From NCBI GenBank assembly GCA_001184205.1, contig LBMP01000001.1, forward strand, positions 1,206,001 through 1,270,000: a stretch of DNA of 64,000 nucleotides, in the 5' to 3' direction. A program made the translations under genes and the position numbers. Every line of letters begins with the position of its first letter. Within the stretch, counting starts at the first letter, position 1. Positions 1 through 42,257 of this stretch are shown one piece after another. A model generated the notes under the pieces. The model was given only the letters and a program-made list of their open reading frames with translations. It made no database searches and had not been told where the DNA came from. This DNA is from Desulfocarbo indianensis. Its GTDB lineage: Bacteria > Desulfobacterota > Desulfarculia > Desulfarculales > Desulfarculaceae.

Positions 1-190
1 ATGTCCTTAAGCCCGACACGGTTCTTTTGAGCCTTGAAATGACGCCCTTGGCAAGGATGGGCTCCCGGGCGGGCCGCCTCGGCTTTTCGAGCAGGCCCCG
101 GCCAGGCAGGGACCCGCCCAGGGGCCGCAAGGTCTCATGAGGGACCGTGGCCCGTTGACGCAGGTCCAGAATGCCGGCCATGCCACCCAT
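1..190 (-). CDS. Partial ORF with asparagine-synthase-like N-terminus (runs off left edge)
   Basis: The reading frame opens with ATG at 190-188, sharing one base with the TGA of the upstream aminotransferase (TGATG), so the two are translationally coupled. It stays open for 63 codons to the window edge. The first ten residues, MGGMAGILDL, closely match the MCGIAGILDL start of class II glutamine amidotransferases such as AsnB, but the catalytic Cys2 is Gly. The RGPDG motif expected about 25 residues later is absent. It could be a degenerate or non-catalytic asparagine synthase homolog, or a decayed gene. The identification rests on the N-terminus only. Confidence 0.35.
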   Translation of the reverse strand, partial: MGGMAGILDLRQRATVPHETLRPLGGSLPGRGLLEKPRRPAREPILAKGVISRLKRTVSGLRT

Positions 191-1380: not shown

Positions 1381-2296
1381 AGGCCGTGCTCTGTTCTTTC
1401 AGATAGAGTTCGCCCACCAGCTGGTTTTCCAGGTAGTGGACCCGCCAGTGATCGCAGTGCAGGCAGGTGGCATCGCTCAGGCCGGCGGGATCCTTGTGCT
1501 GCCCGCGCAAACGGGCGTAGGCCTCCCCTTGCCACACCGCCTGTATGCCCGACCGGCCCACGTCGCCCAGGGGCGGATCGCGGTACCAATCGTGATTGCA
1601 AAGCGCGGCTTGGCCGTTGTGATAGACCACCATTTCGCTGAAAGGCTTTTGGCAGGCCAAACGCTCTTGCGGCCCGGCCTGGCCCAGGCCGGGCAGGCTG
1701 CCGGTGTGGCCGTCGGCCGAATGCTCGTAATAGATGCGCACCCGGTCGGCCACGTTTTGCCAGGCGGCTATGAATTTTTGCATGCTCTCCTGGTTGAGCC
1801 CGGTGCGGGTGGCCGATACCTGAACCGTGGTGGCGTAGCCGCCCTGGTCGCGCAGCCTGAGGAAGCGCCTGACGTTGCGCAGCACCTGGGGGAGATCGCC
1901 GCCTTTCCTTATGCGGCGGTACTCCAACTCATCCATGGTGTCCAGGCTGAAGGAGATGAAATCCAGGCCGGCGTCCAAAAGGCGCTTGGCCATCAGCTCG
2001 GAGAGCAACAGCCCGTTGCTGGCCAACTGCACGGGGCCCAGGCCCTTGCCCTTGGCATAGGCGATCAGGTTGGCGATGGCCGGATGCAGCAGGCTTTCGC
2101 CCCGGAAAAAGGGGACCAGGGCCACTGGAAGATGACCCGAGGCTTCGTCCACCAGGCGCTTGAAAAGCTTGGGCTCCATCATCCCCTTGGCTTCGCCGGG
2201 ATCGAAGCGCGAGGGGCACATGGCGCACTTGTAATTGCATTGATTGGTCAGTTCCAAGGTTAGCCTGCTTGGAAAAGCCGGGGTTTTAATGGTCAT
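1373..2296 (-). CDS. Radical SAM/SPASM domain protein
   Basis: About 307 residues from the ATG at 2296. The [4Fe-4S] motif CNYKCAMC lies at residues 20-27 (CX3CX2C), followed by a radical SAM barrel. A Cys-containing C-terminal region (ACQKPFSEMVVYHNGQAALCNHDW, then CLHCDHW) looks like a SPASM auxiliary-cluster domain. The frame extends 33 codons further upstream, but those residues look non-coding; a purine-rich GACGAGAAG precedes this ATG. The last 8 nt overlap the aminotransferase gene. Proteins of this type recur in polysaccharide loci; the reaction is unknown. Family confidence is high, function low. Confidence 0.85.
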   Translation of the reverse strand: MTIKTPAFPSRLTLELTNQCNYKCAMCPSRFDPGEAKGMMEPKLFKRLVDEASGHLPVALVPFFRGESLLHPAIANLIAYAKGKGLGPVQLASNGLLLSELMAKRLLDAGLDFISFSLDTMDELEYRRIRKGGDLPQVLRNVRRFLRLRDQGGYATTVQVSATRTGLNQESMQKFIAAWQNVADRVRIYYEHSADGHTGSLPGLGQAGPQERLACQKPFSEMVVYHNGQAALCNHDWYRDPPLGDVGRSGIQAVWQGEAYARLRGQHKDPAGLSDATCLHCDHWRVHYLENQLVGELYLKEQSTAYA

Positions 2297-2509
2297 GGTC
2301 TTCTCGTCCCGTTTTTGGCTCCAATGAGGGCCGGGCAAGGCGGCGGCCCCCCGCGCCATCGTTTTCTGGCTGTATGCATGCAATCCAAAGGCCAATCTGG
2401 GGAGATTGATTAGCCCAATCTATCATGGTCATTGGGTTTATTGCGGAATCCCCAGCAGTTTCCAACCAAGCGGCGGGGGAGGGCTCGCGGCCGTAAGTAT
2501 AATAAAAGC

Positions 2510-2542
2510 GTTGACATTTTGACTGCCAGTCAAAATGTCAAC
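2510..2542. promoter_or_regulatory. Perfect 15-bp inverted repeat, 3-nt spacer
   Basis: Arms GTTGACATTTTGACT and AGTCAAAATGTCAAC flank the spacer GCC. Both arms carry TTGACA, the sigma-70 -35 consensus, in opposite orientations. No T-run follows, so it does not look like an intrinsic terminator. It lies 214 bp upstream of the radical SAM gene start at 2296. An operator for a dimeric regulator is the simplest reading; a mobile-element end is another. I find no convincing -10 at the right spacing on either strand. Confidence 0.55.
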
Positions 2543-3909: not shown

Positions 3910-5892
3910 ATGTGCGGAATAGCGGCCGTATTTGACTTGAGACGACACGAACCGGTCAGGCGCTCCGTTCTTCGGAGAATGTCAAACGCGTTGGCCCATC
4001 GGGGGCCTGACGGCTCGGGCCTTTACCTCAACCGGAACATCGGCTTGGCGCATCGCCGCCTGGCGGTCATTGACCCCACGCCGGCGGGGGCCCAGCCCAT
4101 GACCACCCGGGACGGGCGATTCACGGTATCATATAATGGGACTATTTATAACTTCCTGCAATTAAAGCAGGAACTCATCCGGCTCGGGCACGCCTTCCAA
4201 TCGAATTGCGATACCGAGGTGCTGCTGCATGGTTTCGAAGAGTGGGGTGAAGATATAATCCAGCGGCTAAACGGCCATTTCGCCTTTATCCTCTATGACC
4301 GCGACAATCACAAGGCCTACCTGGTCCGCGACCGCTATGGAACTAAGACGCTTTATTACGCCAATCTGGGCGGCCTGTGGCTGATAGGCTCCGAGATTAA
4401 AGCGATCCTGGCCCATTCGGCCTATAGTTTCGCAATCAATTACGATGCGTTGAATGAGTATTTCACTTTTCAGAACCTGTTCCGCTTCCAAACCCTTTTC
4501 GAGGGCGTAAACCTGCTCCCGCCCGCCAACATCTTGACGATAGACTTGGACAGCGGCGCTGTATCGCGGCGGTCGTACTGGGATTACAACTTCACCAGCC
4601 ATGACGATACGATGACCGCCTGCGACGCGAAAAACGAGACCCGCCGCTTACTGGAGCAGGCGGTGAGCAGGCAACTGTACGCCGACGTTCCCCTGGGCGG
4701 ATACCTCTCGGGCGGCATGGACTCCGGCTCCATCGTGAAGATCGCTTCCGCCTCGGTGCCTCGCTTCCATACCTTCACCTGCGGCTGGCACATGGAAGAG
4801 GTGGATGGGGTGGAGCTTGCCTATGATGAAAGGATCCACGCTGAACGGATGGCCGCGTCTTTCGGGACCCGGCATTTTGAGCAGGTGGTGGGCCATCACG
4901 ATATTCACTGGGTTCTGGATGATCTGGTGAGCCACCTGGAGGATATCCGGCTGGGCATGTGCTATGGCAACTACTACATAGCCGATTTGGCCTCGCGGTT
5001 CGTGAAGGTGTGCCTGTCCGGGGCGGGAGGGGATGAACTGTTCGGAGGATACCCCTGGCGCTATTACCGCTTCTCCCTGGTCTCCAACCGGGAGGAGTTC
5101 TTTGATCGTTATTACGAATATTGGCAGAGATTGGTCCCGGAACAACACCGCAAGGACTTCTTTTTACCGTCCGTCGGGGAAAAAATGGGGTTTTCGGACC
5201 CCAAAGAGGTGCTGAAGCGGGTCTTCACTTTCAATGACCACCTGAACTACGCGACGCCCGAGGACCACATCGCCAACTCCATGTATTTTGAAGCCAAGAC
5301 CTTTCTGCACGGCCTCCTGATCGTGAACGACCGCCTGTCCATGGCGCACGGGCTTGAAGAGCGCTTCCCCTTTTTGGACAATGACTTATGCGACTTCGCC
5401 CAAAAAATACCCGTCCGTCACAAGCTGAGGAACCTGTACAACTGGAAAAGCCTTGATGAAAACAACCTCTTCAAGCGCAAGCAGAATTACGCTGAGCATG
5501 ACGACGGGAAAAACGTGCTGCGCAAAGCCATGGAACATTACATACCGGATGAGATACTCAACCGTAAAAAACAGGGTTTCTCCTCGCCGGACGGCTCATG
5601 GTACCGAGGTCCCATCCTCAAATTCGTCCAGGACAAAGTCTTAAGCAAGACCAGCCTCTGCCATGAGTTCATATCCCGGGGGAAGATAAAGGAAATCCTG
5701 GAAGACCATTGCCGGGGAAACAACAGGCGCCTATTGATTTGGTCGCTGCTTTGCTTTGAAACTTGGCTGCAGATTTTTGCCAATTCGCGTTCTGGGCTGA
5801 AGTATAACCACGGCCCCTTGGATTTGGTCCCCTCGGTGAGTCCCGAAACCTCGTCTCGGGCCCGTATCGCCGGCCCGGTCTTGAATCGATGA
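3910..5892 (+). CDS. Asparagine synthase (glutamine-hydrolysing) family protein
   Basis: 660 residues. The N-terminal class II amidotransferase domain starts MCGIAAVFDL, so Met removal would expose the catalytic Cys2; it includes HRGPDGSG, HRRLAVID and SYNGTIYN (the family usually has NGEIYN). The C-terminal synthetase domain has the PP-loop SGGMDS at residues 267-272 and SGAGGDELFGGYPWR. Together they transfer ammonia from glutamine to an ATP-activated carboxylate. The start is fixed by the Cys2 requirement although the frame is open further upstream. Glycan loci often carry AsnB homologs that amidate sugar acids, so a glycan role is more likely here than asparagine supply. Confidence 0.92.
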   Translation: MCGIAAVFDLRRHEPVRRSVLRRMSNALAHRGPDGSGLYLNRNIGLAHRRLAVIDPTPAGAQPMTTRDGRFTVSYNGTIYNFLQLKQELIRLGHAFQSNCDTEVLLHGFEEWGEDIIQRLNGHFAFILYDRDNHKAYLVRDRYGTKTLYYANLGGLWLIGSEIKAILAHSAYSFAINYDALNEYFTFQNLFRFQTLFEGVNLLPPANILTIDLDSGAVSRRSYWDYNFTSHDDTMTACDAKNETRRLLEQAVSRQLYADVPLGGYLSGGMDSGSIVKIASASVPRFHTFTCGWHMEEVDGVELAYDERIHAERMAASFGTRHFEQVVGHHDIHWVLDDLVSHLEDIRLGMCYGNYYIADLASRFVKVCLSGAGGDELFGGYPWRYYRFSLVSNREEFFDRYYEYWQRLVPEQHRKDFFLPSVGEKMGFSDPKEVLKRVFTFNDHLNYATPEDHIANSMYFEAKTFLHGLLIVNDRLSMAHGLEERFPFLDNDLCDFAQKIPVRHKLRNLYNWKSLDENNLFKRKQNYAEHDDGKNVLRKAMEHYIPDEILNRKKQGFSSPDGSWYRGPILKFVQDKVLSKTSLCHEFISRGKIKEILEDHCRGNNRRLLIWSLLCFETWLQIFANSRSGLKYNHGPLDLVPSVSPETSSRARIAGPVLNR

Positions 5893-5908
5893 GAGACGAG
5901 GTGAAACC

Positions 5909-8900
5909 ATGAGCAATCAATTCTTGGCCCAGGGCCAGAAGCTTGTCGTTGAAAAGAAATACGCGGAGGCCCGGAACGCCTTCTTGATGGCGCTGGAGGT
6001 CGAACCAGGGTGCGTCCAAGCGCATAACAACATAGCGGTGCTCAGCATGTTGGAAAAGGAGCCGTCCCAGGCCGAGTCGCATTTCCTGAAGGCCATTTCC
6101 CTTGACCCGAAATACAGCGTCGCCAGGGAAAACCTGGTGCAATTGTATCTCAAGGAGGAGAAATGGAACCAAGCTAGAAATCAACTGGAGATAATGCGCC
6201 AAGATTCGCCGGAATCCCAGGATGTGGCCAATAAGTTGGCCCTGGTCTATGAGAAACTCGATCAGCCCCCGCAAGCCCAAACCCGAGCGGGCCAAACGGA
6301 TGACAAACATGGCAACCGCCCAAGCGGCCGAGGAAAGGCAATCCATGAGAAGGCCAGGGCAGTCCCGTCCCGGAAGGTATTATTGGCTTGCTTGCCCGGC
6401 CTCGACAATTTCGTGGATGATGTGGCGGCTGAACTGCGGCCCGACTTCATGGTGGAGAAGCTGGTTTCGGACCAGTTGGATTCATATGTTTCCGCCATCA
6501 AAGACAAGGATATTGTCTGGCTCGAATGGGGCAACCAACTCGCCGAGGTTTTGACCAAAAGGGCGCGCTTCGCTCTGCGGGGCAAAAAAGTCGTCTGCCG
6601 AATTCATAGTTATGAGGTGTTGGACGGCCTGACGGACAGGATAGATTTTTCCGTTGTCAGCGATTTGATCTTCGTGGCTCCGCACATCCGGGATATCTTC
6701 CTGAAAAGGCATCCGGGAATCGTTAAAACCGCCACGAAGCTGCATCTGGTCCCCAACGGCATCGACACGGAACGCTTCGGCATGATTCGGCGGGACCCGG
6801 GGCATGTGGTTGGCTTCCTCGGGTCTATCAATTTCAAGAAAGACCCCATGGTGCTCATGCACGCCTTCCAGGCCTTGCAAGCGCACGACCTCCGGTTTTC
6901 CCTGCGGGTGGGAGGGGGAGTACAGTGCCTGCGCGCCGAGGTGGCCATTCCCACTTTCCTCCGCCAGAACGGGCTGACGGATCGCGTTACGTTCGACGGT
7001 CCGGTGAAGGACGTGCGGGACTGGCTTTCCAGGGTGAACTATATTATCTGCACCAGCCTCATGGAAGGCCACCCGGTTGGGCTGATGGAAGCCATGTCCA
7101 CCGGCTGCCGGCCGCTTATTTACGCCTTTCCCGGGGCGGACCGGATGTACCCCGCCTCTTTTTTATGGAAGAGCATACCGGAGCTGATCCGAAGGATAGA
7201 CGAACCAATCGATCCGGAGGTCTGCCGGGAGTTTGTCACCGAGAACTTTTCGCTTCAAAAGCAGGCCGCAAGGTTCGTAAAGGTTTTCACCGGCCGCGCG
7301 GGCGGCGCTCCGGTGGAGCCCTATTCCTGGCGGCGCGAAAAACGGCTTTACACGGATAGCCCTGTTTATCATGAGCATCGCCAGGCTGCCGCGCAGCCCG
7401 GGCCGGACAGGCGCCAGGTGGCCCGAAGGGATAAATATGATTGGAAATTCCCATCGGAGATATACGCGCAAGACCCCGCCGTTCGACTAAGGGCTTTCAT
7501 CTCGGAAGCGCAAAGGCAGCTCGAGGCCGGCAAGCGGGAACTCGCCGAGACGAGCCTGCTGAGGGCGGCCAAAACTTTGGATTGGAATTCTTCCTTTGTT
7601 GTCAATCAACTCCTGGAGCTATATCGCACGCGGCAGGACATTCCCGCCATACAGCAACTATGGAAACGGGTGGCGGTCTCTGGATTGCGGCGCGGAGACC
7701 TCAACCAGTTTCTCGGCGCGCACTACATGGCCAACTACGCCGAGAGCATGAACTCCAAAGACCCGGATTATTCTTTCTGCGATATAGACGAAGATTATCA
7801 CGCTTTTATCGCTTTGGCCGCCAGACAGCACCCCTTTGCCAAGTGGGTCGTGCAAAACCGGGCGTTGAACCGGCCCGATGGCAGGCGCTTGAGGATCGGT
7901 TTTGTGCTGGAAGGATTCAGCAAGTTGCAAGCGCCCATTCAAAGATACCGCACTCTGGCCCGCCATTATGATCCGAGCCGCTATGAGCTTGCTTTTTATT
8001 CGCGGGTCTCCGCGGACAGCGCACCATTCAAGAACGAGGATTATGCCTCGGTCGCCGCTGAAATGGAAGAGCGGGGTTGCAAGGTCAGATATCCGGCGAA
8101 GCCGCTCGCCCCCTTGGACGAGGTGAAGTTCTTGGCTGAAAACATAGTCCGGGACGAGATGGATATTATATTTTATCAGACCATATATTTCGTCCCTCAA
8201 TTGCATTTCCTGTCTTGGCTGGAGCCGGCCTTTTACCAGGCATCGACCAGCCATCAACAACCTGAGTTGCCGCGCAGCGTGGACGCCTGCCACCTTGGGA
8301 TCAACCTGGTTCCCGACCATGTGGGCTACGCTTATCCCAACCTGCTCTCGGTCGACAAGGATACCAACAGCCCGGCCTCCAACCGGCGAGACTTTGGAAT
8401 CCCCGAGGATGCCGTGGTCATGGCTTGCGCCAATAGGGATATCAAGTACCGCAACGAGGCCAATCTGCAATGGTGGCAGGCGATAGGCGCCGCGCTGGAA
8501 CGTCACGACAATCTGTATTTTCTGCCCTTGGGCCTGGAAGAACCGGTCGATCGGGTACCCGTCTCCCCAAAAGTCAAAAACAGGGTTGTCGCTCTGGGCT
8601 TCAGAACCGACTTGATGCCTTTGCTGAAGATGGCCGATTTCTATGTCGACATCTTCATGCATACCTCGGGGGCGGTGATGGAAGCCGCTTGTCTGGGGTT
8701 GCCGGTGCTGGCCGTGAGCCGCTATTTGGCCGGCGCTCCATTCTCCACCAGAGATAGCGATATCACCAAGATGCTGTTGCCTGAGACTGAATTGGTAGTT
8801 CCCGAGGGCCAACTGGATGTTTGGAAAAGCCGCATCGACCGTCTCGTGCTGGATGCGGATTACAGGAGGGCGATGGGTAGGGTTCATCTGGAGTTCGCGG

Positions 8901-9007
8901 AGCGCTTCAAACCTGGAACCGCTGTCTCGATATTTTTGAATGACCTGGAGAACGGCTATCGAGCCAAGATGGCGACTTTCATGAGGGCGGTCAACACAAC
9001 TAGCTGA
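5909..9007 (+). CDS. TPR protein with two glycosyltransferase-like domains
   Basis: 1032 residues, start at 5909 behind GAGACGAGGTG, 16 nt after the amidotransferase stop. Residues ~1-130 are TPR repeats (YAEARNAFLMALEVEPGC and the following units). Residues ~150-475 look like a GT-B glycosyltransferase of family-4 type: LHLVPNGIDTERF, GFLGSINFKKDP, and TSLMEGHPVGLMEAMSTGC with the ExxxxGxxxxEA pattern. A helical linker (~515-650) precedes a second domain (~655-1010) with a weak GT-B C-terminal signature (FYVDIFMHTSGAVMEAACLG, LPVLAV), reminiscent of SPINDLY/OGT-type TPR transferases. Probably cytoplasmic. Two transferase modules in one chain suggest sequential sugar addition, perhaps to protein; acceptors are unknown. 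Confidence 0.8.
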   Translation: MSNQFLAQGQKLVVEKKYAEARNAFLMALEVEPGCVQAHNNIAVLSMLEKEPSQAESHFLKAISLDPKYSVARENLVQLYLKEEKWNQARNQLEIMRQDSPESQDVANKLALVYEKLDQPPQAQTRAGQTDDKHGNRPSGRGKAIHEKARAVPSRKVLLACLPGLDNFVDDVAAELRPDFMVEKLVSDQLDSYVSAIKDKDIVWLEWGNQLAEVLTKRARFALRGKKVVCRIHSYEVLDGLTDRIDFSVVSDLIFVAPHIRDIFLKRHPGIVKTATKLHLVPNGIDTERFGMIRRDPGHVVGFLGSINFKKDPMVLMHAFQALQAHDLRFSLRVGGGVQCLRAEVAIPTFLRQNGLTDRVTFDGPVKDVRDWLSRVNYIICTSLMEGHPVGLMEAMSTGCRPLIYAFPGADRMYPASFLWKSIPELIRRIDEPIDPEVCREFVTENFSLQKQAARFVKVFTGRAGGAPVEPYSWRREKRLYTDSPVYHEHRQAAAQPGPDRRQVARRDKYDWKFPSEIYAQDPAVRLRAFISEAQRQLEAGKRELAETSLLRAAKTLDWNSSFVVNQLLELYRTRQDIPAIQQLWKRVAVSGLRRGDLNQFLGAHYMANYAESMNSKDPDYSFCDIDEDYHAFIALAARQHPFAKWVVQNRALNRPDGRRLRIGFVLEGFSKLQAPIQRYRTLARHYDPSRYELAFYSRVSADSAPFKNEDYASVAAEMEERGCKVRYPAKPLAPLDEVKFLAENIVRDEMDIIFYQTIYFVPQLHFLSWLEPAFYQASTSHQQPELPRSVDACHLGINLVPDHVGYAYPNLLSVDKDTNSPASNRRDFGIPEDAVVMACANRDIKYRNEANLQWWQAIGAALERHDNLYFLPLGLEEPVDRVPVSPKVKNRVVALGFRTDLMPLLKMADFYVDIFMHTSGAVMEAACLGLPVLAVSRYLAGAPFSTRDSDITKMLLPETELVVPEGQLDVWKSRIDRLVLDADYRRAMGRVHLEFAERFKPGTAVSIFLNDLENGYRAKMATFMRAVNTTS

Positions 9008-9126
9008 AAGAACGGACTGTTTATGGGGAAGGCCCTCGCGGGTCTCTGGTGGTGGATGAAAAGTAGTTCGATCGCCTTGACTCTCATGAAACCCGTGCCC
9101 TGAACTAAAGAACCGAGGTGACCCGG

Positions 9127-9891
9127 ATGAATGAGGCGCTTATTAGGGATACCATCAGCGAATTTCAAGCGGTTTTGGGCGACAATGAATGGCAGTTCCT
9201 TAATCGGGTCTATTCCGGCGGAATCGCAAGCTACCAAGCCCGGCTCCGGCAGTACGGATTTGAGCGGATGGAGCGGGTCCTTGACGCCGGCTGCGGATTC
9301 GGGCAATGGGCCCTGGCCCTGGCGGAGCTGAACGCAAATGTGGAGGCCTTGGACGATTCTTCGATCCGCGTGGTTTTCATCAAAGAGCTACAGAAGCGTC
9401 TGGGCCTGCCGGGCTTGAAGCCGAGCAAGGGTAGCATTGAGCGGGTGCCTTTTCCCGACGGGGCCTTTGATGGCCTCTGGTGCTATCAATCCTTCTTCCT
9501 CTCGGACTGGAAAAATACCCTGCGAGAATTTCGCAGGGTGCTCAAGCCGGGCGGACTCTTGTATCTGAACGCCAACAGTCACGGGTGGTATAGATTTATT
9601 TGGGAGACCAGCCACAATCGAACGTCGGACTTTGACCCGCGGCTTACGGTGGCCAAGGCATACATGAACACTTGGCGTTATGAAAATGGCCACTTGATTG
9701 AAAAAGGCGCACCAATTATCATTGCACCGGACGATTTGGAAAACGTGCTAGATTCCTTGGGGTTCAAAGATATAAGGAGGGCGAAAGAAGGCTATGCCAA
9801 CCTTCCCTCCGATGCGGTCGCCAATCCGTTTCTAAAAGGCGAATATGGCGGTGACTTGGCGGTATATGAAGTGCTGGCCAGAAAAGTTTGA
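9127..9891 (+). CDS. Class I SAM-dependent methyltransferase
   Basis: 254 residues from the ATG at 9127, chosen because GAGGTG at 9115-9120 is a well-spaced ribosome binding site; an in-frame GTG at 9118 lies within that site. Motif I VLDAGCGFG (residues 51-59) binds SAM, and the LREFRRVLKPGGLLYLNANS segment is the usual post-core helix and strand. Residues after about 160 are likely the acceptor-binding part. Third gene of the plus-strand glycan run, so a sugar or amino-sugar O/N-methylation role is inferred. Substrate unknown. Confidence 0.85.
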   Translation: MNEALIRDTISEFQAVLGDNEWQFLNRVYSGGIASYQARLRQYGFERMERVLDAGCGFGQWALALAELNANVEALDDSSIRVVFIKELQKRLGLPGLKPSKGSIERVPFPDGAFDGLWCYQSFFLSDWKNTLREFRRVLKPGGLLYLNANSHGWYRFIWETSHNRTSDFDPRLTVAKAYMNTWRYENGHLIEKGAPIIIAPDDLENVLDSLGFKDIRRAKEGYANLPSDAVANPFLKGEYGGDLAVYEVLARKV

Positions 9892-10197
9892 TGGCCCGTG
9901 ACCCATGAAGCCGTATCTTTATGCTTGGCTAAAGGCGCATGATGATATCATTTTCGCTCGAGGTGGGAGGAATCGGCAAGACACCGTGGTCAAACTGTTC
10001 GCGTGGAACCGGCTTTTTTAATGGCATATGGCAGTGAATCGAGGGGATGGCCGTTTCCGCCAAGAGGACTATGGTGCATTGGGTCGGAGCACGATGCACC
10101 ATTTAAATATCAGCATGGTAATTCGTCAGGCATGGATCGCTCTTCTGCCGACAGCTTCATTGGCATCAACCGCTACGCGTTGGGCTAATGTATTGAT
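9892..10197. other. Intergenic stretch between methyltransferase genes
   Basis: Together with the micro-ORF that follows, this makes a 464-nt gap in an otherwise dense operon. A 38-codon frame at 9905-10021 lacks homology I can recognise. Base composition drops in GC toward 10100-10340. The gap may be the scar of a deleted gene or carry an internal promoter; nothing definite is visible. Confidence 0.4.
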
Positions 10198-10341
10198 ATG
10201 GGAAAGAATAATATCGTTATTTTTGGGAGTGAAAACGATAAACGATGGCGCCATATTGAGCATGTATATCCGTATGCCGTCAGAGAAAATCAATCAGCCA
10301 CGTCTGCCGGCATGGTGTGCAATCCGATGCGGAACCAATAG
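10198..10341 (+). CDS. Possible 47-codon ORF ahead of methyltransferase
   Basis: ATG at 10198, stop TAG at 10339-10341 embedded in the AGGAGG ribosome binding site of the next gene. The translation starts MGKNNIVIFGSENDKRW and has a protein-like composition, unlike the other frames nearby. No good ribosome binding site precedes it and no family is recognised. It may be a gene remnant, a translated leader, or chance. Confidence 0.2.
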   Translation: MGKNNIVIFGSENDKRWRHIEHVYPYAVRENQSATSAGMVCNPMRNQ

Positions 10342-10355
10342 GAGGCTATTATAAA

Positions 10356-11387
10356 ATGACGCCCCCGCCTTTTAGCTTAGTCTGCCCAGAACATCGCCAG
10401 AGTGTTTTATCGTTATCCGGGGATAATCTTATCTGCCCGGCATGCGGTCGAACATTCAGTCGCAACCCGGTGCCTGATCTGTTGGGTTACGTTCCAGAAG
10501 AGAATCCCACGGCGGCTCATTATACCAAACAATGGGGATCTCCTTTGGGGTTCAACCGTTTTCTGGAGAAGAACAAGAAAGCCGAACTGGTCACCATGGG
10601 CAAACAGCTTGGCTGGCCTAAATTGTTCGATAACATTAGGCGGCAGGCTGAAACCCAAGAAGTCAAGGTTTTTGATGCGGCATGCGGCAGGGGCGCCATA
10701 TTTCTCGATCTTTTCCGGGCGCCGATTCCCGGGCGTCTTTATTATCTAGGCGCTGACATTCACGGCGCGCTGGGGGATATTCAGTCACCGGAGCGCATTC
10801 TGGGCGAACAGGCTTTTTTCGTTCGTTGGGATATCAGCGAGCCCCTGCCGGTGGCGGAAAAATTCGACTACGTGATTTGCCGCGCCTCGGTTCACCACAC
10901 GCCCGATCCGGCCAGAACGCTTCGAAGTCTTAAAGAGGCGCTCAAACCCGGCGGAGTCCTGGCCATATCGGTATATACCAAGAAGGCTCCCATGCGCGAG
11001 GCGGTGGATACCGCCTTGCGGGAAATGATCGTGCCGTTGCCCTCCGAGGAGGCGTACAGCGTCTGCCGCCAGCTTTCCGTCCTGGGGCGCGATCTGCAGA
11101 AAACCGGCGCCAAGATAACCATAAGCGAAGACCTGCCGTTTCTCGGCATTTCGTCCGGGGAACATGAATTGCAATCCTTTATTTATGAACACCTGATTAA
11201 ATGCTGGTATAACGATCAATTCGGCATCGAGCATTCCACCGCGGTGAATTTTGATTGGTATCATCCCGCCTATGCCTATCGCTTCTCGGAAGATGAGCTA
11301 TATTCGCTGGTTGAAGAGGCGGGCCTGGTAGTGGCTGGCTTTGAAAGCAATAAATACCAACATTACGCAGAACTGAGAGCAGAATGA
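10356..11387 (+). CDS. Zinc-ribbon (Trm112-like) plus SAM methyltransferase
   Basis: 343 residues from the ATG at 10356, preceded by AGGAGG. The N-terminus has CPEH and, 16 residues on, CPACGRTF, a Trm112-like zinc ribbon common at the front of glycan and natural-product methyltransferases. Motif I is VFDAACGRG; DYVICRASVHHTPDP and LKEALKPGGVLAISVY follow. The C-terminal ~130 residues are helical and probably select the acceptor. It shares C-terminal character (QSFIYEHLIKCWYND) with the next gene (QRFIYYFFLNCFWNG), which suggests related substrates or a duplication. Confidence 0.85.
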   Translation: MTPPPFSLVCPEHRQSVLSLSGDNLICPACGRTFSRNPVPDLLGYVPEENPTAAHYTKQWGSPLGFNRFLEKNKKAELVTMGKQLGWPKLFDNIRRQAETQEVKVFDAACGRGAIFLDLFRAPIPGRLYYLGADIHGALGDIQSPERILGEQAFFVRWDISEPLPVAEKFDYVICRASVHHTPDPARTLRSLKEALKPGGVLAISVYTKKAPMREAVDTALREMIVPLPSEEAYSVCRQLSVLGRDLQKTGAKITISEDLPFLGISSGEHELQSFIYEHLIKCWYNDQFGIEHSTAVNFDWYHPAYAYRFSEDELYSLVEEAGLVVAGFESNKYQHYAELRAE

Positions 11388-11393
11388 TCCGCC

Positions 11394-12356
11394 ATGACTC
11401 CACCGAATTGGGATGAAATACTCGATCTGTCGAGTCCCCATACATTACCGCCGTCGCGCAACTATTTTCTGGATTATTTCCAAGATAAATCCAACCGGGA
11501 GAGACTGTATTCCAACTGCGTAGACCAGGATACGTTTAAGGCCTATACATCCGAACCAAACCTTGTCTGGCGCATTAAGGGCTTTTTAAGCCGATACGGT
11601 TATCTTTCAGAGGAGGAATTTAGCGCGGCCATAAAACAAGACGGGGTAATTGCTGACTTGGGGGCCGGCGGGGGCATGTATTTGTTGTGGTTGACGCGCC
11701 TTTTCCCGGATGCGGCCATTTTAGGGGTGGATTTCTCGGAATCACTATCTTTGCTTGATCAGCATTGTGGACCGTTTCCCAACCTTGGGCTGCTCAGGTG
11801 CGACCTGAACCGGACAATTCCCATACAAGACCAAACCGTTGACTTTGCGATTTGCGATTATGTGCTCAGCGAGGTAAAGGACCCTCGTTTCACCATTGGG
11901 CAATTTGCGAGGATTCTCAAGCCGGAGGGAAGGCTCGCGGCGTCTTTCAGCCTCAAGCGGGCTCTTCCAAGAAAAATCACTGATGATTTCCTCCAGGGTT
12001 TTTTCAACAAGGGCCAGGACAAGGACATAAACGCCGTTGCCGAGGAACTTACCGGCCTTGCCCGGGAATTGGCGGAAAGCGGATTAAAAGTAAAAATTAA
12101 AAATAATTACAAATTCCTCAATCTTCCGCCTGGCGAATATCCATTGCAGCGATTCATTTATTATTTCTTTTTAAATTGCTTTTGGAACGGCGATGAAACA
12201 TATAGCCGTAAGCGGAACAGGTCCAATTTTATCATCTCCAGGGACTCCAAGTTTTACGCCGCAGATGAAATCACCGAAATGATTGACGAGGTATTCAATG
12301 TCGAGCGCGCCGACAATAATCTAACCTCTCTTTCTCTTTTGCTGAAAAAGAAATAG
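11394..12356 (+). CDS. SAM-dependent methyltransferase
   Basis: 320 residues beginning 7 nt after the previous stop. Motif I is VIADLGAGGGMY, with FAICDYVLSEVKDP and FARILKPEGRLAASF further on, all typical of class I methyltransferases. There is no zinc ribbon. The binding site is weak, so translation may be coupled to the upstream gene. The C-terminal segment YPLQRFIYYFFLNCFWNG parallels the upstream protein. Likely acts on the same glycan precursor, but this is inferred only from position and resemblance. Confidence 0.82.
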   Translation: MTPPNWDEILDLSSPHTLPPSRNYFLDYFQDKSNRERLYSNCVDQDTFKAYTSEPNLVWRIKGFLSRYGYLSEEEFSAAIKQDGVIADLGAGGGMYLLWLTRLFPDAAILGVDFSESLSLLDQHCGPFPNLGLLRCDLNRTIPIQDQTVDFAICDYVLSEVKDPRFTIGQFARILKPEGRLAASFSLKRALPRKITDDFLQGFFNKGQDKDINAVAEELTGLARELAESGLKVKIKNNYKFLNLPPGEYPLQRFIYYFFLNCFWNGDETYSRKRNRSNFIISRDSKFYAADEITEMIDEVFNVERADNNLTSLSLLLKKK

Positions 12357-12403
12357 CCGCCTGATGGCGGGTGCGGGCGGCTTGCGGAAGGGCTTTGTAG
12401 GTT

Positions 12404-13465
12404 ATGGAGATTGTGCAAATTCCTAAAGACGCTAGGCTCGCCGACTGGACCGAGCTGCTGCACAAGTCGCCCAATAGCCTGCTTTTCCAGTCCAAGCAGT
12501 GGGTTGGCCTGCTGTCCGAATACCTGGCGGGGGTCCAGGACGAAACCTTGTTGTGCCTCGATCAGGGGAAAATGATCGGGGCCTTGCCAATGCTGGCGGC
12601 CCAAGGTCCCTTGGGCCCGGTCGCCAATTCCCTGCCTTTTTATGGTTCAAACGCGGCTTTTATAATCGATCCAGACCACCCGAACCCGGACGCCATACGC
12701 GAGGCTCTCTGGGCGGCTTGGCTTGAACGGGAAAAGGAAATCGGCGCCGTAGTTACGGTGCTGATAGACACTCCTTTTGGCGATCACGGGTCCTTCCTGG
12801 AAAAATATTCTTGGGATTATAAAGAGGAACGCATCGGCCATTTGACGCCCCTTGCCGATATCGGCGGTGGCGAGGAAGCCGAGGGCAGGCTTTACCAATT
12901 GATCCACGGCAAGACCAGAAATGTGGTTAAAAAGGCCAAAAAGCTGGGCGTGACCGTGGACGTGACCACAGACGAGGCCGATTACCGGTTTTTGCAGGAG
13001 ACGCACGAAGAAAACCTCAAGGCAATGGGGTCTTCACCCAAGGAAAGACCGTTTTTCGATAAAGCCAGGGCCATGTTGGATACCCGCACCTATATCGGCA
13101 GGTTATCGGGCGAGGCCGTGGCGGGATTGTTTCTGGTCCGCTATCACAAAACCATAGAATATTTCACCCCGGCCATAAAAAAGGAATTCCGCTCCTCGCA
13201 GCCGCTCAGCGCCATCATTTTTCAGGCGATGTTGGACGCGGCCGCAGAAAATTTTGCCTGGTGGAATTGGGGGGCTTCTTGGCCCAGCCAAGAGAACCTG
13301 CAATTGTTCAAGAAACGTTGGGGATCGGTCAATACGACTTATTCCTATTATATACGTTCGTCGGTTCCGCTTGAGGATATCAGGTGCTTGGGGGTCGAGG
13401 GGCTGCTGCGCGGCTATCCGTATTTCTATGTGATCCCCTTCAGCGCCCTCGCTGAAAAGCATTAG
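12404..13465 (+). CDS. FemAB/GNAT-like acyl- or aminoacyl-transferase
   Basis: 353 residues. The pattern (N-terminal half with LLFQSKQWVGLL, a basic stretch at HGKTRNVVKKAKKLGV, then GEAVAGLFLVRYHKTIEYFTPA and ending in a WNWGASWPSQENLQLFKKRWG motif) is that of the FemAB-related GNAT proteins found in exopolysaccharide and cell-wall loci. The LxxFKxxWG C-terminal motif is well preserved. FemAB proteins attach amino acids from aminoacyl-tRNA to peptidoglycan; relatives in glycan clusters may acylate sugars. Start at 12404 behind GTAGG. Substrate unknown. Confidence 0.75.
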   Translation: MEIVQIPKDARLADWTELLHKSPNSLLFQSKQWVGLLSEYLAGVQDETLLCLDQGKMIGALPMLAAQGPLGPVANSLPFYGSNAAFIIDPDHPNPDAIREALWAAWLEREKEIGAVVTVLIDTPFGDHGSFLEKYSWDYKEERIGHLTPLADIGGGEEAEGRLYQLIHGKTRNVVKKAKKLGVTVDVTTDEADYRFLQETHEENLKAMGSSPKERPFFDKARAMLDTRTYIGRLSGEAVAGLFLVRYHKTIEYFTPAIKKEFRSSQPLSAIIFQAMLDAAAENFAWWNWGASWPSQENLQLFKKRWGSVNTTYSYYIRSSVPLEDIRCLGVEGLLRGYPYFYVIPFSALAEKH

Positions 13466-13473
13466 AGCGAGAC

Positions 13474-14322
13474 ATGAAAACGGTCATATATTACGGCAGC
13501 TATCCAATAAGCTTGGCCTTGCTGAAGTCGCTTTGCCAGGACCCAAGGTTCAGGATAGAGATGGTTGTCACCGCTCCTGCCCATGGGATTGCGCCCAGGC
13601 CGGTGTTGGAGTGGTTGAATGCCGGCGGTTTGCCGTTTCCCGTGCTGACGCCGGCCTCCCTCAAGGCCGGCTCGCGGCCCATTCAGTTGGAACGGGCTGC
13701 GGCCGATTTGGTGCTGGCCTGCGCTTATTCTCTGAAAATACCAAAGAGCCTGCGGGACAAGGCTTATGTCGCGGCCCTGAATGTCCATCCGTCTTTACTA
13801 CCCAGATACCGGGGGGCCGACCCGTTGCGGCGGGCCATCATGGCCGGCGAAAACCAGACCGGCATTACTCTGCTGAAATTGAGCGACGAGTTTGACTCCG
13901 GCGAAATTCACGCCCAATGGAGCATCGGGATGAAACCCGGTATCGACTTGGGGGAATTATACAGGTCCTTGACGGAACTATGCGTCAGCAAGGTCCCGGA
14001 CGCCCTGCATCGCGCCGCCAGCCGCATGGATTCGCCCACTCCCCAAGCAAGCGGGGAAGCCACCTATGCGCCGCCGGTCACGGACGAGGAGCGAAGGATT
14101 CGGCCGGGCCTCGCGGCCGACCGGGCGGACAGGATCGTCAGGGCGAACCATCCCATGACTCCCGCCTATGTCATCGAAAACGGACGCCGCCTTTTTTTGG
14201 CTCCGGGGGAGTTCGCGCCTCAACCGGCCCCATCAAGTTTGTTCGAGATCAATGCGGGCCGATTGGTTGTCGCGGGATCAAAGGGAATCGCCAAGTTCAA
14301 CGTAATTCAAGCAAGCCGATGA
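13474..14322 (+). CDS. Formyltransferase family protein (Fmt/sugar N-formyltransferase type)
   Basis: 282 residues, starting 8 nt after the previous stop. The catalytic residues of 10-formyl-THF-dependent formyltransferases are present: Asn103 and His105 in NVHPSLLPRYRG and Asp141 in FDSGEI. The C-terminal part after ~180 is shorter than in Met-tRNA formyltransferase. In a locus with a DegT aminotransferase, N-formylation of an amino sugar is the most economical role. A true fmt next to def is not indicated. Confidence 0.82.
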   Translation: MKTVIYYGSYPISLALLKSLCQDPRFRIEMVVTAPAHGIAPRPVLEWLNAGGLPFPVLTPASLKAGSRPIQLERAAADLVLACAYSLKIPKSLRDKAYVAALNVHPSLLPRYRGADPLRRAIMAGENQTGITLLKLSDEFDSGEIHAQWSIGMKPGIDLGELYRSLTELCVSKVPDALHRAASRMDSPTPQASGEATYAPPVTDEERRIRPGLAADRADRIVRANHPMTPAYVIENGRRLFLAPGEFAPQPAPSSLFEINAGRLVVAGSKGIAKFNVIQASR

Positions 14323-14341
14323 ACCGGCGGGGAAGCGATAA

Positions 14342-15730
14342 ATGTGCGCCGATCTCATAAAAGACCAGATAGATCATAATCTAGATAAGTTGGAAAACGA
14401 GTGCAGGCGTTCCCCGCTTTTCGCTTGGAGCAACGGCCTTACCGAGTTGGACTACACGCCGCCCATACTCTATATCAGCCCCACGAACGCGTGCTCCCAC
14501 AGCTGCCGGATTTGCGCCCACAAAACCGCCATGCGCAGGGGGGTTCGGGATGACGGCGAACGCCAACGCGGCCTGATGGACTGGGATCGGTTCACGGCCA
14601 TTGCCGATCAGGTGCCCGAGGACGTCACCCGCATATATTTCTACAAGCACGGGGAGCCTCTGCTTCACCCCCGATACCTTGAGATGCTCCAGTATTTGCG
14701 GTCGAAAGTCGGAACCCGGGTGGAGATCGCTCTCAGCACCAACGCCACCCACCTCAAAGAGGGAATGTTTCCTGTCTTGCTGGACAATCTCAACGTCATC
14801 CTTTTTTCCATTTACGGATTGGACCGCCAAACCTTCAAGGAATTGCACGGGCGGGACGATTTCGAACCCATCATGGCCAAAATCAAGAAGTTTCATGAAT
14901 TTTACCTGGGCTACGATAAGCCGAAATCCGAGGTTTATTTCAATTTCGTGCGCCAGGAGGGCAACGCCGACGTGAGCGACGAGGAAGTAGAATCCTTTTT
15001 CGTCGAAAATTTCCCAGCGTTTCATAATGCCATCCACGGGGTCTACAACTTCGGGGGGCGCATCTCCGAGGGCAATTACCAGGTTCTGGACGAGGCTGAC
15101 AAGTCGTTTTATCCGGTTTGCATTTTCCCTTTTGTCGTCACCACGGTTCTATGGGACGGCTTCATCTCCCATTGCATGGTGGATGTCGAAGAACTGGTGC
15201 ACAATGGGCGGGTTCCGGAGGAAAACCTAAAGGAGCTGGTGAATCATCCCGGCCTGATAGATTACCGCCGGGCGTCTCTCGAAGGGGATTTCCAAACGTT
15301 GGCGCAAAGGCGTCTGGGCTGCGGGGAATGCAATTGGCTTTTTCATCTGCGGGCCCAGGGCCTCAATTACTTCACCCTCCGAACCAAGCAGATCGCCAAA
15401 AGCTTTGAGCTGAGCGGATTGGATGACCTGAAGCTGAGCGGCGAGGAATACCTGTACAGCGGCCTGCTGAATTATCTGAGAGGCGAACTCGACCAGGCCT
15501 TAGGAAACTTCGTGGCCGCCCAGGAAATCATAACCGCTCCCGAAATCCGGTCCAAGGCCGTTGAATGGGAGGCTTTCGTCCGCGCGGTCTATCGGCGCAG
15601 GAGGCATTTGGAAAGATGGGAGCGGGCCTTCAACGAGGAAGGCCTCAGCATTAGGAGCATATTCAAAACCACTTATTTCGAAACCACTTATGATGGCCGG
15701 CAAAAGCGGATCGATAAGCACAGTTTTTAA
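14342..15730 (+). CDS. Radical SAM protein with C-terminal Cys cluster
   Basis: 462 residues. The [4Fe-4S] motif CSHSCRIC is at residues 51-58 (CX3CX2C), followed by IYFYKHGEPLLHP and LSTNATHL barrel strands. Further Cys occur in YPVCIFPF, SHCMVD and LGCGECNW, consistent with an auxiliary SPASM-like cluster. The last ~110 residues are helical and basic, an extension beyond usual SPASM enzymes. It ends the plus-strand operon, 19 nt after the formyltransferase. Reaction unknown; it is a second radical SAM enzyme in this glycan locus and differs in length and spacing from the one at 1373-2296. Confidence 0.85.
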   Translation: MCADLIKDQIDHNLDKLENECRRSPLFAWSNGLTELDYTPPILYISPTNACSHSCRICAHKTAMRRGVRDDGERQRGLMDWDRFTAIADQVPEDVTRIYFYKHGEPLLHPRYLEMLQYLRSKVGTRVEIALSTNATHLKEGMFPVLLDNLNVILFSIYGLDRQTFKELHGRDDFEPIMAKIKKFHEFYLGYDKPKSEVYFNFVRQEGNADVSDEEVESFFVENFPAFHNAIHGVYNFGGRISEGNYQVLDEADKSFYPVCIFPFVVTTVLWDGFISHCMVDVEELVHNGRVPEENLKELVNHPGLIDYRRASLEGDFQTLAQRRLGCGECNWLFHLRAQGLNYFTLRTKQIAKSFELSGLDDLKLSGEEYLYSGLLNYLRGELDQALGNFVAAQEIITAPEIRSKAVEWEAFVRAVYRRRRHLERWERAFNEEGLSIRSIFKTTYFETTYDGRQKRIDKHSF

Positions 15731-16053
15731 CGGGCCATGCGGTCTTGGGAGCGAGCGCCGGATATAGCCGGCAAGCGCCATCCTTCGCCCTGCGCCGGTC
15801 TTGCGAGGGTGGCCAGGCTTGCGACCGCCCGGCTTGTTCTGCCCCACAAGCCCCGGCCGCGAGGAAAGGCCGGAAAGGGGAAAAGTCGTCCGCGGCCCAT
15901 TCCTCCGCTCTTGCCCAGCGCTTTTCGTCATCAACCTTCAGCCAAACCAGACGGTTGGGGAATCAGGGCGGGGAGAGGCGGGCAACTCCATGGCAAGGAA
16001 GACCGGCTTGGCCATGGCCGGCTTCTGTTCTCCGAATTTTGTGAGAGGCCTCT
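15731..16053. other. Intergenic region between convergent genes
   Basis: Separates the convergent radical SAM (plus) and deacetylase-like (minus) genes. GC-rich with overlapping frames in several phases, none with a ribosome binding site or recognisable protein. No clear hairpin with a T-run was found. Confidence 0.4.
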
Positions 16054-16755
16054 TCAGCATCCGCGGCCAGCCACGGTTTTCAGGATTTCCCCCAAGGGCT
16101 TGGATTGTATTTTCAAGCTTTTCATCCTTTCCAGAAGCGACAGGAGCATATCCCTCGCGCCGGTCGCCCCGGTTTGGCGGCGCGTCTTCAGGTATTGGTA
16201 ATCATGGTAATATGCTTTTATTCCGCCATAGTAATCCACGCTCGGAGTGTTGAGGTAGATATGGATTGGATGAAAACAAAAAACGTAAAGGTTTTCCACT
16301 GTGAAATTGCCTTCCGCTAGAGGCGCGGCGGCTTGTTTGGTGTTTTTAAGCCTCAGCCAAGTCATATCGGAAAAGTAAATCGGCATCTCCCACAGTTCGA
16401 CCAGCCGAAAGGGCCTGATCCCCTCCATGTAAGGCATCATGTAGTCGCTGCTGTATTTTATCCCGTGGCGCGGGTAAATGTCGGTCATCAGCCTGCCGTT
16501 GAAATACAAGCCATGGCCGCGGATTCCAATCGCCTCGGGATAAAGATCAAGCATCCGCTTGACGTGATCTTCTTCGGATAGGCTTCGGTCAAAGTAATTT
16601 GGGTGCAGCGCGGTTTCGTGTCGCCCGATCAGATCCGGGGAATATTCCGAAGTGCAGAAAACCGTGGCCGTCTGCCCATAGTAAGCCAGCAATCCCATGG
16701 TGTCCGCGAGAATTTCCGGAACGACCCAGTCCGTGTCGATTGTTATGGATACCAT
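16054..16755 (-). CDS. WbmS-like polysaccharide deacetylase-family protein
   Basis: 233 residues from the ATG at 16755, preceded by GCGAGGGCG; an in-frame TTG three codons upstream is less likely. The N-terminal ITIDTDW supplies the Asp pair, and HETALHPNYF, IRGHGLYF and CFHPIHIYLNTP supply His residues in the order seen in the NodB-fold deacetylase relatives of the WbmS type encoded in O-antigen loci. No signal peptide is seen, so it should be cytoplasmic. Likely removes an acyl group from a sugar in glycan precursor synthesis. The family call is by motif pattern. Confidence 0.7.
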   Translation of the reverse strand: MVSITIDTDWVVPEILADTMGLLAYYGQTATVFCTSEYSPDLIGRHETALHPNYFDRSLSEEDHVKRMLDLYPEAIGIRGHGLYFNGRLMTDIYPRHGIKYSSDYMMPYMEGIRPFRLVELWEMPIYFSDMTWLRLKNTKQAAAPLAEGNFTVENLYVFCFHPIHIYLNTPSVDYYGGIKAYYHDYQYLKTRRQTGATGARDMLLSLLERMKSLKIQSKPLGEILKTVAGRGC

Positions 16756-16937
16756 GGATTTCAACGCCCTCGCTGAAAGTGGAACCTATCCGCAGCGGCC
16801 ACGCCGCTTTTTCTGGACGGTAACGGTTCATATGGCTTCTTCACCGGGCAGCCGGGGTGGATGCCGCGCCGTCTCCCAGGTTTCCAATCCGGTATTAACA
16901 GACCTTCGGCTAGATCGAACATAAAAAAACCATTGAC

Positions 16938-18038
16938 TCACGCGGCCCAAAAGGCCAACGCGGATTCAACCACCCTTTCCGCGGTGCGTCCGTCCCACAG
17001 TTCGATGGGCCCGGCGGCGGCGATGCCGCCGGCCAGGGCCGTCTCCGCCAGGGCGGCCAGCTCCTCGGGCCGGCACAAACGGTTGCTGCCCTGGCTGATG
17101 GTGATGGGCCTTTCGGTGCTGGGCCGCAAGGTGAGGCAGGGGATGCCCAGGTAGGTGGTTTCCTCCTGAATGCCGCCCGAATCGGTGATGGCCAGCCGCG
17201 AACGCCACAAGAGGCTCATGAAGGAGATATAGCCCAGGGGCTCCATGATATGGAGGCCGGGCTGCTCTTGCAGACTTTCCCACCGGCCGGCCTCGGCCAG
17301 GCGGGCCCTGGTGCGGGGATGCACGGGAAAGGCCAGCGGCAGGCGGCGGGCCAGGCCGCTCAGCACCTCCATGATGAGCCCCAGGGTATCCGGTCGGTCC
17401 ACGTTGGCCGGCCGATGCAGGGTGACCACGCCGTAGGCGCCCGGCTCCAGGCCCAGGCGGCCGGGCAGGTCGGCGGCCTCTATGCGGGGGCGCATCATCT
17501 CCAGGCTGTCGATCATGATGTTGCCCACCCGTTCCACCCGACCATGCACCCCCTCGCGGGCCAGGTTGGCATCGGCGTCCGGCGAGGGCGTCCACAATAG
17601 ATCGGCCAGGGCGTCGGTCACCACCCGGTTGATCTCTTCCGGCATGGTCCGGTCAAAGGAGCGCAGGCCCGCCTCCAGGTGGGCCACCTTTACGCCCAGC
17701 TTCACCGCGGCCAGGGCGGCGGCCACGGTGGCGTTGACGTCGCCGGCCACCACCACCAGATCGGGGCTGGTTTCCAGGAGCAGGGTTTCATAGGCCATCA
17801 TGGTGCGGCCGGTCTGCTGGGCGTGGGAGCCGCTGCCTATGCCCAAATGAAAATGGGGCCGGGGCAGGCCCAGGTCCCGGAAAAAATCGTCCGACATGTT
17901 GGCGTCGTAATGCTGGCCGGTGTGAACGATATGGGGCCGGCACCAGCTCTCCCCAGCCAGCGCCTTCCACAAAGGCGCCACTTTCATGAAATTGGGCCGG
18001 GCCGCCGCCACCAAGTGTATGTTTTTGATTTTTTTCAT
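16938..18038 (-). CDS. wecB: UDP-N-acetylglucosamine 2-epimerase (non-hydrolysing)
   Basis: 366 residues, usual length. N-terminal LVAAARPNFMKVAPLWKAL, HTGQHYD, GSGSHAQQTG, VVAGDVNAT, HLEAGLRSFDRTMPEEINR and the C-terminal ITDSGGIQEETTYLGIPCLTLR with RPIT are all hallmarks. The enzyme interconverts UDP-GlcNAc and UDP-ManNAc in the cytoplasm, feeding ManNAc-containing surface polysaccharides. It lies at the end of the glycan locus and probably supplies a precursor. A T-run follows the stop codon on the minus strand (16922-16928), but a stable stem is not obvious. Confidence 0.95.
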   Translation of the reverse strand: MKKIKNIHLVAAARPNFMKVAPLWKALAGESWCRPHIVHTGQHYDANMSDDFFRDLGLPRPHFHLGIGSGSHAQQTGRTMMAYETLLLETSPDLVVVAGDVNATVAAALAAVKLGVKVAHLEAGLRSFDRTMPEEINRVVTDALADLLWTPSPDADANLAREGVHGRVERVGNIMIDSLEMMRPRIEAADLPGRLGLEPGAYGVVTLHRPANVDRPDTLGLIMEVLSGLARRLPLAFPVHPRTRARLAEAGRWESLQEQPGLHIMEPLGYISFMSLLWRSRLAITDSGGIQEETTYLGIPCLTLRPSTERPITISQGSNRLCRPEELAALAETALAGGIAAAGPIELWDGRTAERVVESALAFWAA

Positions 18039-41104: not shown

Positions 41105-41163
41105 CGATATCTTCGATCTACAGCGATAACCATATGCTCTATTTATATAAGGCGGTATGAATC

Positions 41164-42116: not shown

Positions 42117-42257
42117 TATGTTAAGTCCGCGTATTGCGCTGTGAATATGTGTTCAATTGGCTGCTGGGTACCGTTGTTTTTTCATTGTGAAATGTAGAAT
42201 CTATATCTGATAAGTAAAATGTGTTAGTGACGGTTAGACTTGATTGGGGGAATCAAA

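Follow-up and report, generated by a model that had tools for sequence, protein, structure and literature searches.

Radical SAM enzymes in a probable flagellin glycosylation island of Desulfocarbo indianensis

We analysed a 64-kb stretch of the draft genome (5.11 Mb) of Desulfocarbo indianensis, positions 1206001-1270000 of contig C1 (LBMP01000001.1), here called the window, to which all coordinates refer unless a locus label is given. Close to two flagellin genes, the window carries a block of genes for sugar-modifying enzymes, including a run of eight plus-strand genes at 3910-15730. We conclude, with a probability of about 0.82, that this block forms the tailoring section of an island for flagellin glycosylation, a type of locus already described. 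Because the cluster lies directly beside flagellin genes both here and in a related bacterium, decoration of a flagellum-linked sugar is its most likely role. The unusual part of the island is a trio consisting of a radical S-adenosylmethionine (SAM) enzyme, a DegT-family aminotransferase and an AsnB-type amidotransferase, and brings oxygen-sensitive radical enzymes into such a locus. The gene families, catalytic residues, flagellin adjacency, synteny in a second genus and difference in GC (guanine plus cytosine) content are read from the sequence itself.

Results

The 40 kb preceding the window, scanned with Pfam, encode FlgI (E-value 1.4e-141), FlgK (5.1e-50), an FlgL-like protein (3e-19), CsrA, FliW (8.6e-43), glycosyltransferases, FliS (2.1e-38), FliD (8.2e-31), a weak GT9-like protein, a GT2 protein with tetratricopeptide repeats (TPR) and two flagellins (4.1e-39 and 2.3e-38), in this order. 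The second flagellin gene ends about 690 bases ahead of window base 1 on the same contig, which places the block at a flagellin locus. The glycosyltransferase genes from fliW to fliS encode a PF13524 protein, a Maf/MptE-like protein (PF01973, 2.2e-13), GT2 plus TPR, GT4 and GT9 proteins, and a PF13524 protein with a Maf N-terminal domain (Maf_flag10_N, 9e-7). Altogether, eight glycosyltransferase-like genes lie between fliW and the flagellins, seven of them over the Pfam cut-offs and one (L010:11415-12674) just under (19.2 vs 22). The locus thus joins glycosyltransferase genes to genes of sugar biosynthesis and modification, as glycosylation islands do.

The original prediction had envisaged a short, heavily decorated glycan on a protein such as flagellin or an S-layer protein, given many tailoring enzymes, few glycosyltransferases and no flippase or polymerase. 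All the enzymes that it named are present and in frame at the coordinates in Table 1 (open reading frames, ORFs, and Pfam matches at 3910-15730 and in the flanks); the TPR repeats of the glycosyltransferase and the radical SAM gene at 1373-2395 had been missed. The survey of the neighbourhood that it proposed did turn up flagellar genes, just upstream. Of the two suggested acceptors, flagellin gains from the position of the block beside flagellin genes here and in Dethiosulfatarculus, as well as from other Desulfarculaceae in which parts of the block share a contig with flagellin or fliD genes, and nothing points to an S-layer. The claim of few glycosyltransferases does not hold, given the eight upstream of the window, and the short glycan, which was argued from it, is accordingly unsupported. 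Adjacent export genes, which the prediction had named as the finding that would overturn it, did not appear: the flippase family PF13440 was detected only on contigs C268, C312 and C279 and not on the 1.54-Mb contig that carries the window, in a search that did not extend to PF01943, Wzy or ABC export genes. No NeuB-type synthase was found among the scanned proteins of the window and the upstream region, the whole genome not having been searched for NeuB.

Successive genes of the eight-gene run are separated by 16, 110, 425, 6, 47, 8 and 19 bp, so that its earlier description as one run is fair except for the 425-bp gap between methyltransferases 1 and 2, which contains no clear gene; two transcripts across the run are possible. 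Upstream, a 1.5-kb gap (2396-3909) without a convincing gene in any frame separates AsnB from the divergent gene for radical SAM enzyme 1. The GC content is 0.47-0.60 in the genes at 3910-16764 versus 0.65-0.66 around them, a depression characteristic of glycosylation islands. Across the DegT, radical SAM 1 and 2-epimerase genes, it is 0.62-0.67 (DegT 0.67, epimerase 0.67); the membership of the 2-epimerase, with its host-like GC, in the island is uncertain.

Synteny was observed in Dethiosulfatarculus sandiegensis SPR, of the same family (G002; NZ_AZAC01000056.1, stretch L036), where two flagellin genes, a TPR protein gene and the genes for methyltransferase 3 (38% identity), the FemAB-like protein (50%), the formyltransferase (50%) and radical SAM enzyme 2 (63%) follow in succession. 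The other strand carries WbmS (49%), adjoining a radical SAM gene, further glycosyltransferase and methyltransferase genes, AsnB (59%), radical SAM 1 (56%) and the TPR flank (50%); the gene beyond this flank is also shared (53%), and the order of the cassette differs between the two genomes. A search with the FemAB-like protein hit 4 of 60 genomes at E<=0.001; the present genome is one of the four, and G002 (50%) leads the remaining three. Another relative, G007 (L040), has on one contig flagellin, the TPR-glycosyltransferase with both halves, AsnB, DegT, radical SAM 1 and a gene that fuses a dehydrogenase to an acetyltransferase. In G011, fliD and the trio share a contig, and in G015 flagellin is next to the TPR-glycosyltransferase.

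The upstream core recurs in G003 (a single contig of 3.66 Mb), with six glycosyltransferase genes at 47-52% identity, fliS, fliD, GT2 plus TPR and three flagellins, and no gene of the window cassette occurs in the 14 kb after these flagellins. Likewise, no cassette gene was found downstream of flagellin within the stretch of G006 examined, and G005 carries at the same site DegT together with NeuB- and LegB-like genes identified by eye. The tailoring content at the flagellin site therefore varies between relatives (G002, G003, G005, G006, G007), and a conserved core joined to a changeable set of tailoring genes agrees with a flagellin glycosylation island; the window genes seem to represent this changeable set within a larger system. 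A radical SAM 1 homologue scoring >490 bits is present in 6 of the 12 flagellin-bearing genomes of the family (this genome counted) versus none of the 8 flagellin-less ones.

Searches with radical SAM 1 detected matches in 19 of the 395 genomes sampled from the phylum (E<=1e-45) and in 9 of the 20 from the family (E<=1e-20), both counts including this genome. Among the eight genomes with matches >300 bits (G000, which is this genome, G002, G007, G009, G011, G015, G329, G341), AsnB neighbours radical SAM 1 in all, in the window across the 1.5-kb divergent gap, and DegT directly adjoins it in seven, the exception being G002. For weaker matches, DegT directly adjoins in one of six loci examined (L111). 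The trio is conserved within Desulfarculaceae and also in two more distantly related genomes. Radical SAM 2 was considered as a widely shared marker and rejected: its best match among the 395 phylum genomes, this genome aside and G002 not sampled, scores 105 bits, and a contig scan returned Dethiosulfatarculus and one weak 25% match.

Radical SAM 1 contains exactly seven cysteines (33, 37, 40 and 228, 246, 291, 294), conserved in three sequences, and the auxiliary pattern C-x12-G-x4-C ... CxxC is that of twitch enzymes and matches the cysteine arrangement of BtrN. BtrN, whose DegT-family partner is BtrS, is also its best solved match by sequence (42.7 bits), followed by a tetraether synthase and DesII. 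The fold predicted from a two-sequence alignment (predicted local distance difference test, pLDDT, 47.5; auxiliary domain poorly modelled) has viperin as the best match and BtrN at rank 48. Its gene overlaps that of DegT by 8 bp, and its true start likely lies inside the listed ORF. Radical SAM 2 has cysteines 51, 55, 58 and 260, 278, 327, 330, so that both enzymes carry CxxxCxxC; a two-sequence profile of the latter gave no match in the PDB at E<=0.01. The window DegT, with lysine 186 present, scores 234 bits with perosamine synthetase, 194 with ArnB and 156 with WbpE in the PDB, and 286 bits with the PseC model, under the cut-off of 423.5. These matches favour amination at C4, DegT similarity being a weak guide to substrates. 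A separate DegT at C1:281886 belongs to the DesV/QdtB/WbpE class.

AsnB starts at 3910 (MCGIAAVFD) and has the catalytic Cys2 and the ATP loop SGGMDSG. It passes the asparagine synthase cut-off (NCBIfam asn_synth_AEB, 412 bits), and its top-scoring model is the XrtA/PEP-CTERM amidotransferase, below cut-off; because the genome has nine GATase_6 matches, asparagine supply is an unlikely role. The formyltransferase retains the triad N103/H105/D141 and is most like Fmt (126.7 bits with that model, under the cut-off of 201.5), and it probably acts on an amino sugar. Methyltransferases 2 and 3 are paralogues (28% over 169 residues), and all three match general SAM methyltransferase models. The FemAB-like protein scores 50 bits with the pepcterm_femAB model, under cut-off. 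In the PDB, the 2-epimerase matches 8sxv with 282.7 bits versus 115 for 1f6d, and it passes the WecB model as well. The radical SAM 2 gene ends, with its stop, at 15730. For the C-terminal half of the TPR-glycosyltransferase, a family profile weakly matched WaaG and, after it, SPINDLY, and a single-sequence fold had a pLDDT of 44. Membership of this half in GT41 (OGT/SPINDLY) was rejected, the matches being weak and Pfam GT41 absent in four of four members at E<=1.

Two assignments in the sugar pathways were also dropped. A route through UDP-GlcNAcA (WbpA) to a 2,3-diamino-uronic acid is unsupported: the one strong dehydrogenase type is UDP-glucose-dehydrogenase-like (555 bits with the TuaD model, cut-off 700), with a second copy of equal score near the start of contig C279. 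The fusion protein of the relatives is nearer to UDP-N-acetylglucosamine (UDP-GlcNAc) 3-dehydrogenase than to WbpB-WbpD.

Table 1. Genes of the window discussed in the text
Feature	Position	Strand	Evidence
DegT/DnrJ/EryC1/StrS sugar aminotransferase, perosamine synthetase/PseC/ArnB class closest	190..1380	-	PF01041 2.3e-105
Radical SAM enzyme 1, 4-Cys auxiliary-cluster (twitch/SPASM-like) domain	1373..2395	-	PF04055 3.2e-17, PF13186 1.1e-8
AsnB-type glutamine-dependent amidotransferase	3910..5892	+	Asn_synthase PF00733 5.5e-81, GATase_7 PF13537 4.7e-40
TPR repeats, GT4-type glycosyltransferase domain and second GT-B-like domain, 1032 aa	5909..9007	+	Pfam glycosyltransferase 4.9e-18
SAM methyltransferase 1	9118..9891	+	PF08241 2.1e-17
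SAM methyltransferase 2, N-terminal zinc-ribbon-like segment (by eye)	10317..11387	+	PF13489 8.5e-15
SAM methyltransferase 3	11394..12356	+	PF08241 1.7e-13
FemAB/GNAT-fold acyl or aminoacyl transferase	12404..13465	+	Acetyltransf_6 PF13480 1.4e-9
10-formyltetrahydrofolate-dependent formyltransferase	13474..14322	+	Formyl_trans_N PF00551 1.1e-23
Radical SAM enzyme 2, 4-Cys auxiliary motif	14342..15730	+	Radical_SAM PF04055 3.4e-12
WbmS-like polysaccharide-deacetylase-type protein	16054..16764	-	PF22537 1.9e-32
Non-hydrolysing 2-epimerase, nearest UDP-GlcNAc3NAcA 2-epimerase	16938..18038	-	Epimerase_2 PF02350 8.4e-94
Receiver-like and TPR protein, right flank, no glycan enzyme	18118..19356	-	50% to L036:15777-16976 (Dethiosulfatarculus)
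HsdR-like	56183-59194		by eye
HsdS-like	59205-60446		by eye
RhuM-like fragment	60451-60825		by eye
HsdM-like	60925-62595		by eye

The receiver-like and TPR protein at the right flank is present in 10 of the 12 flagellin-bearing and none of the 8 flagellin-less family genomes and is possibly motility-linked. As a general rule of synteny, this flank was discarded: it adjoins the island in two genomes, and about 600 kb separate it from the flagellin genes of G003. HisH/HisF/WbpG-like genes, identified by eye, accompany AsnB, DegT and radical SAM in two relatives (L040:6320-8931 in G007 and L107:100-2782) and suggest an acetamidino group on a flagellin or surface sugar. Elsewhere in the window, at 40592-43842, four ORFs in a row on the plus strand (170-326 aa) share similar N-terminal membrane or signal segments, have a GC content of 41-43% within a 65% GC region and look like a tandem paralogue family. 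A type I restriction-modification-like set, recognized by eye, occupies 56183-62595, with GC skew down to -0.28.

Discussion

Taken together, these results translate into a model whose acceptor, flagellin, we infer, together with the sequence of the steps and each substrate. Under this model, the conserved glycosyltransferases of the fliW-flagellin interval, including the Maf protein, would build a glycan on flagellin, and the window genes would make and decorate a distal or variable sugar. The radical SAM enzyme and the DegT transaminase would modify this sugar and install an amino group, AsnB would turn a carboxylate into an amide, and the TPR-glycosyltransferase would attach the sugar either to flagellin or to the growing chain. 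Capping of amino and hydroxyl groups would fall to the methyltransferases, the formyltransferase and the FemAB-like enzyme. All these steps would be cytoplasmic and precede the export of flagellin, so that no flippase or polymerase would be needed. Glycosylation by the Aeromonas Maf protein, described as cytoplasmic and as occurring before export (PMC4065374), offers a precedent that would account for a missing flippase.

Loci of this kind, with tailoring by formyl, methyl, acetyl and amino groups, are known from the islands of Enterobacteriaceae and Geobacillus (PMC4875605, PMC5109656), which share with the present locus a block of varying content by the flagellin genes, made up of glycosyltransferase, aminotransferase, formyltransferase and methyltransferase genes, and, in Geobacillus, a GC content lower than that of the genome and Maf proteins. 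Unlike those islands, the locus described here includes two radical SAM enzymes and AsnB, FemAB-like and WbmS-like proteins; in the two papers, "radical SAM" occurs 0 times in both and "asparagine" 0 and 1 times, respectively. In Caulobacter FlmG, the TPR part binds flagellin and the GT-B part glycosylates it (PMC7591256). The window protein resembles FlmG in layout, with N-terminal TPR and C-terminal GT-B, and differs from it by its GT4 domain and an additional GT-B-like half. The sfm cluster of Shewanella oneidensis (PMC3765264) also consists of tailoring genes, there needed for the filament, and the flagellin carries a methylated outer moiety, but the cluster comprises a thiamine pyrophosphate enzyme, a reductase, a methyltransferase and an ATP-grasp gene; the paper contains neither "formyl" nor "asparagine".

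Several observations weigh against assigning the block to flagellin. In G329 (L108, C60:1-18000), the trio (DegT 33%, AsnB 53%) has in its vicinity a pair of pilin-like genes and one gene resembling a flippase, all identified by eye, and its members may serve other glycans, for example in pilus decoration. The eight flagellin-less family genomes all belong to one genus, and the contrast in radical SAM 1 may reflect one event. At the class level, 5 of 10 stretches with TPR-glycosyltransferase relatives outside this genome lack a flagellin or flagellar hit (L041, L044-L047), 4 of 10 have flagellin (L039, L040, L043, L048), and L038, a 7.9-kb contig, has as its sole flagellar neighbour the GT9-like gene of the flagellar region; two of the ten stretches are on short contigs. 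This glycosyltransferase family is therefore not confined to flagellin. Finally, DegT and the 2-epimerase have host-like GC, and other roles could apply to them.

Given a flagellin target, the chemistry of the trio can be read in more than one way. BtrN oxidises a hydroxyl of an aminocyclitol and has an auxiliary cluster with four cysteines (PMC9012708). The pairing of a radical SAM enzyme carrying one such cluster with a DegT-family aminotransferase resembles the butirosin pair BtrN/BtrS, although the BtrN substrate is an aminocyclitol and the similarity amounts to 42.7 bits only. With BtrN as the closest solved relative by sequence, the trio suggests that a flagellin sugar may be oxidised, aminated and amidated. 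More specifically, the overlapping radical SAM 1 and DegT genes could encode an anaerobic hydroxyl-to-amine module: a nucleotide-sugar hydroxyl would be oxidised in the manner of BtrN, the ketone transaminated and a carboxylate amidated by AsnB, the new amine being formylated, acylated or methylated to yield an amidated, formamido, methylated flagellin sugar, with radical SAM 2 adding an oxidation or epimerisation. We offer this proposal tentatively, at odds clearly against it. Such a route was not found described for flagellin in the literature searched. Among the flagellin-glycosylation papers searched that treat both formyltransferase and methyltransferase, the one that also mentions radical SAM is a Campylobacter phase-variation survey; a wider absence is not claimed.

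A better-placed possibility, to which we give somewhat less than an even chance and which is compatible with a flagellin glycosylation island, has the same flagellin target but a different division of labour: DegT would aminate a 3-keto sugar that the fusion of UDP-GlcNAc 3-dehydrogenase and acetyltransferase supplies, which would yield a 2,3-diamino sugar, and radical SAM 1 would do something else. The fusion gene stands beside the trio in G007, G009 and G011, and this genome has a homologue (C268:38771, 60%), the 3-dehydrogenase half of which scores 147 bits, under the cut-off of 450, and the acetyltransferase half of which is WlbB-like. That homologue, however, is on another contig, no fusion gene lies by the trio in the stretches from G015, G329 and G341, the DegT at C1:281886 is a separate 3-aminotransferase-like enzyme, and the window DegT is nearer to 4-aminotransferases.

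An improbable alternative is that the block modifies an O-antigen, capsule or exopolysaccharide and adjoins flagellin by chance or through an insertion hot spot. Formyl, methyl and amide chemistry is a feature of the Bordetella wbm O-antigen locus. That locus has a WbmS-type protein and genes predicted to modify a terminal sugar (PMC3849452); its O-antigen is on lipopolysaccharide, and the WbmS family is the sole match made here. The WbmS, AsnB and 2-epimerase families are all known from O-antigen loci, the nearest solved epimerase acts on UDP-GlcNAc3NAcA, the best AsnB model, under cut-off, is of the XrtA/PEP-CTERM kind, and G329 has its flippase-like gene. Nevertheless, the same cassette accompanies flagellins in two genera, the PF13440 flippase is missing from the window's contig, and further AsnB-type copies, a UDP-sugar dehydrogenase and a flippase lie elsewhere, near C1:237-291 kb and on C268. 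Still less credible is direct modification of flagellin peptide side chains by the FemAB-like protein, the methyltransferases and one radical SAM enzyme, in the way that FliB methylates lysines: peptides are frequent substrates of twitch/SPASM radical SAM enzymes and radical SAM 2 has no close solved relative, but DegT, the formyltransferase, AsnB and the epimerase in the same block point to sugar chemistry, and the methyltransferases fit general models, FliB itself not having been compared. Flagellin lysine methylation is known (PMC7181671) and counts in favour of this possibility.

To our knowledge, the flagellin glycans of strict anaerobic sulfate reducers have been little studied. If the ordinary reading alone holds, the locus is another flagellin glycosylation island with an unusual mix of genes. 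The trio by the flagellin genes, if it acts as proposed, would bring sugars bound to protein within the range of radical chemistry, and Dethiosulfatarculus sandiegensis, a named and isolated bacterium, provides a testable gene set.

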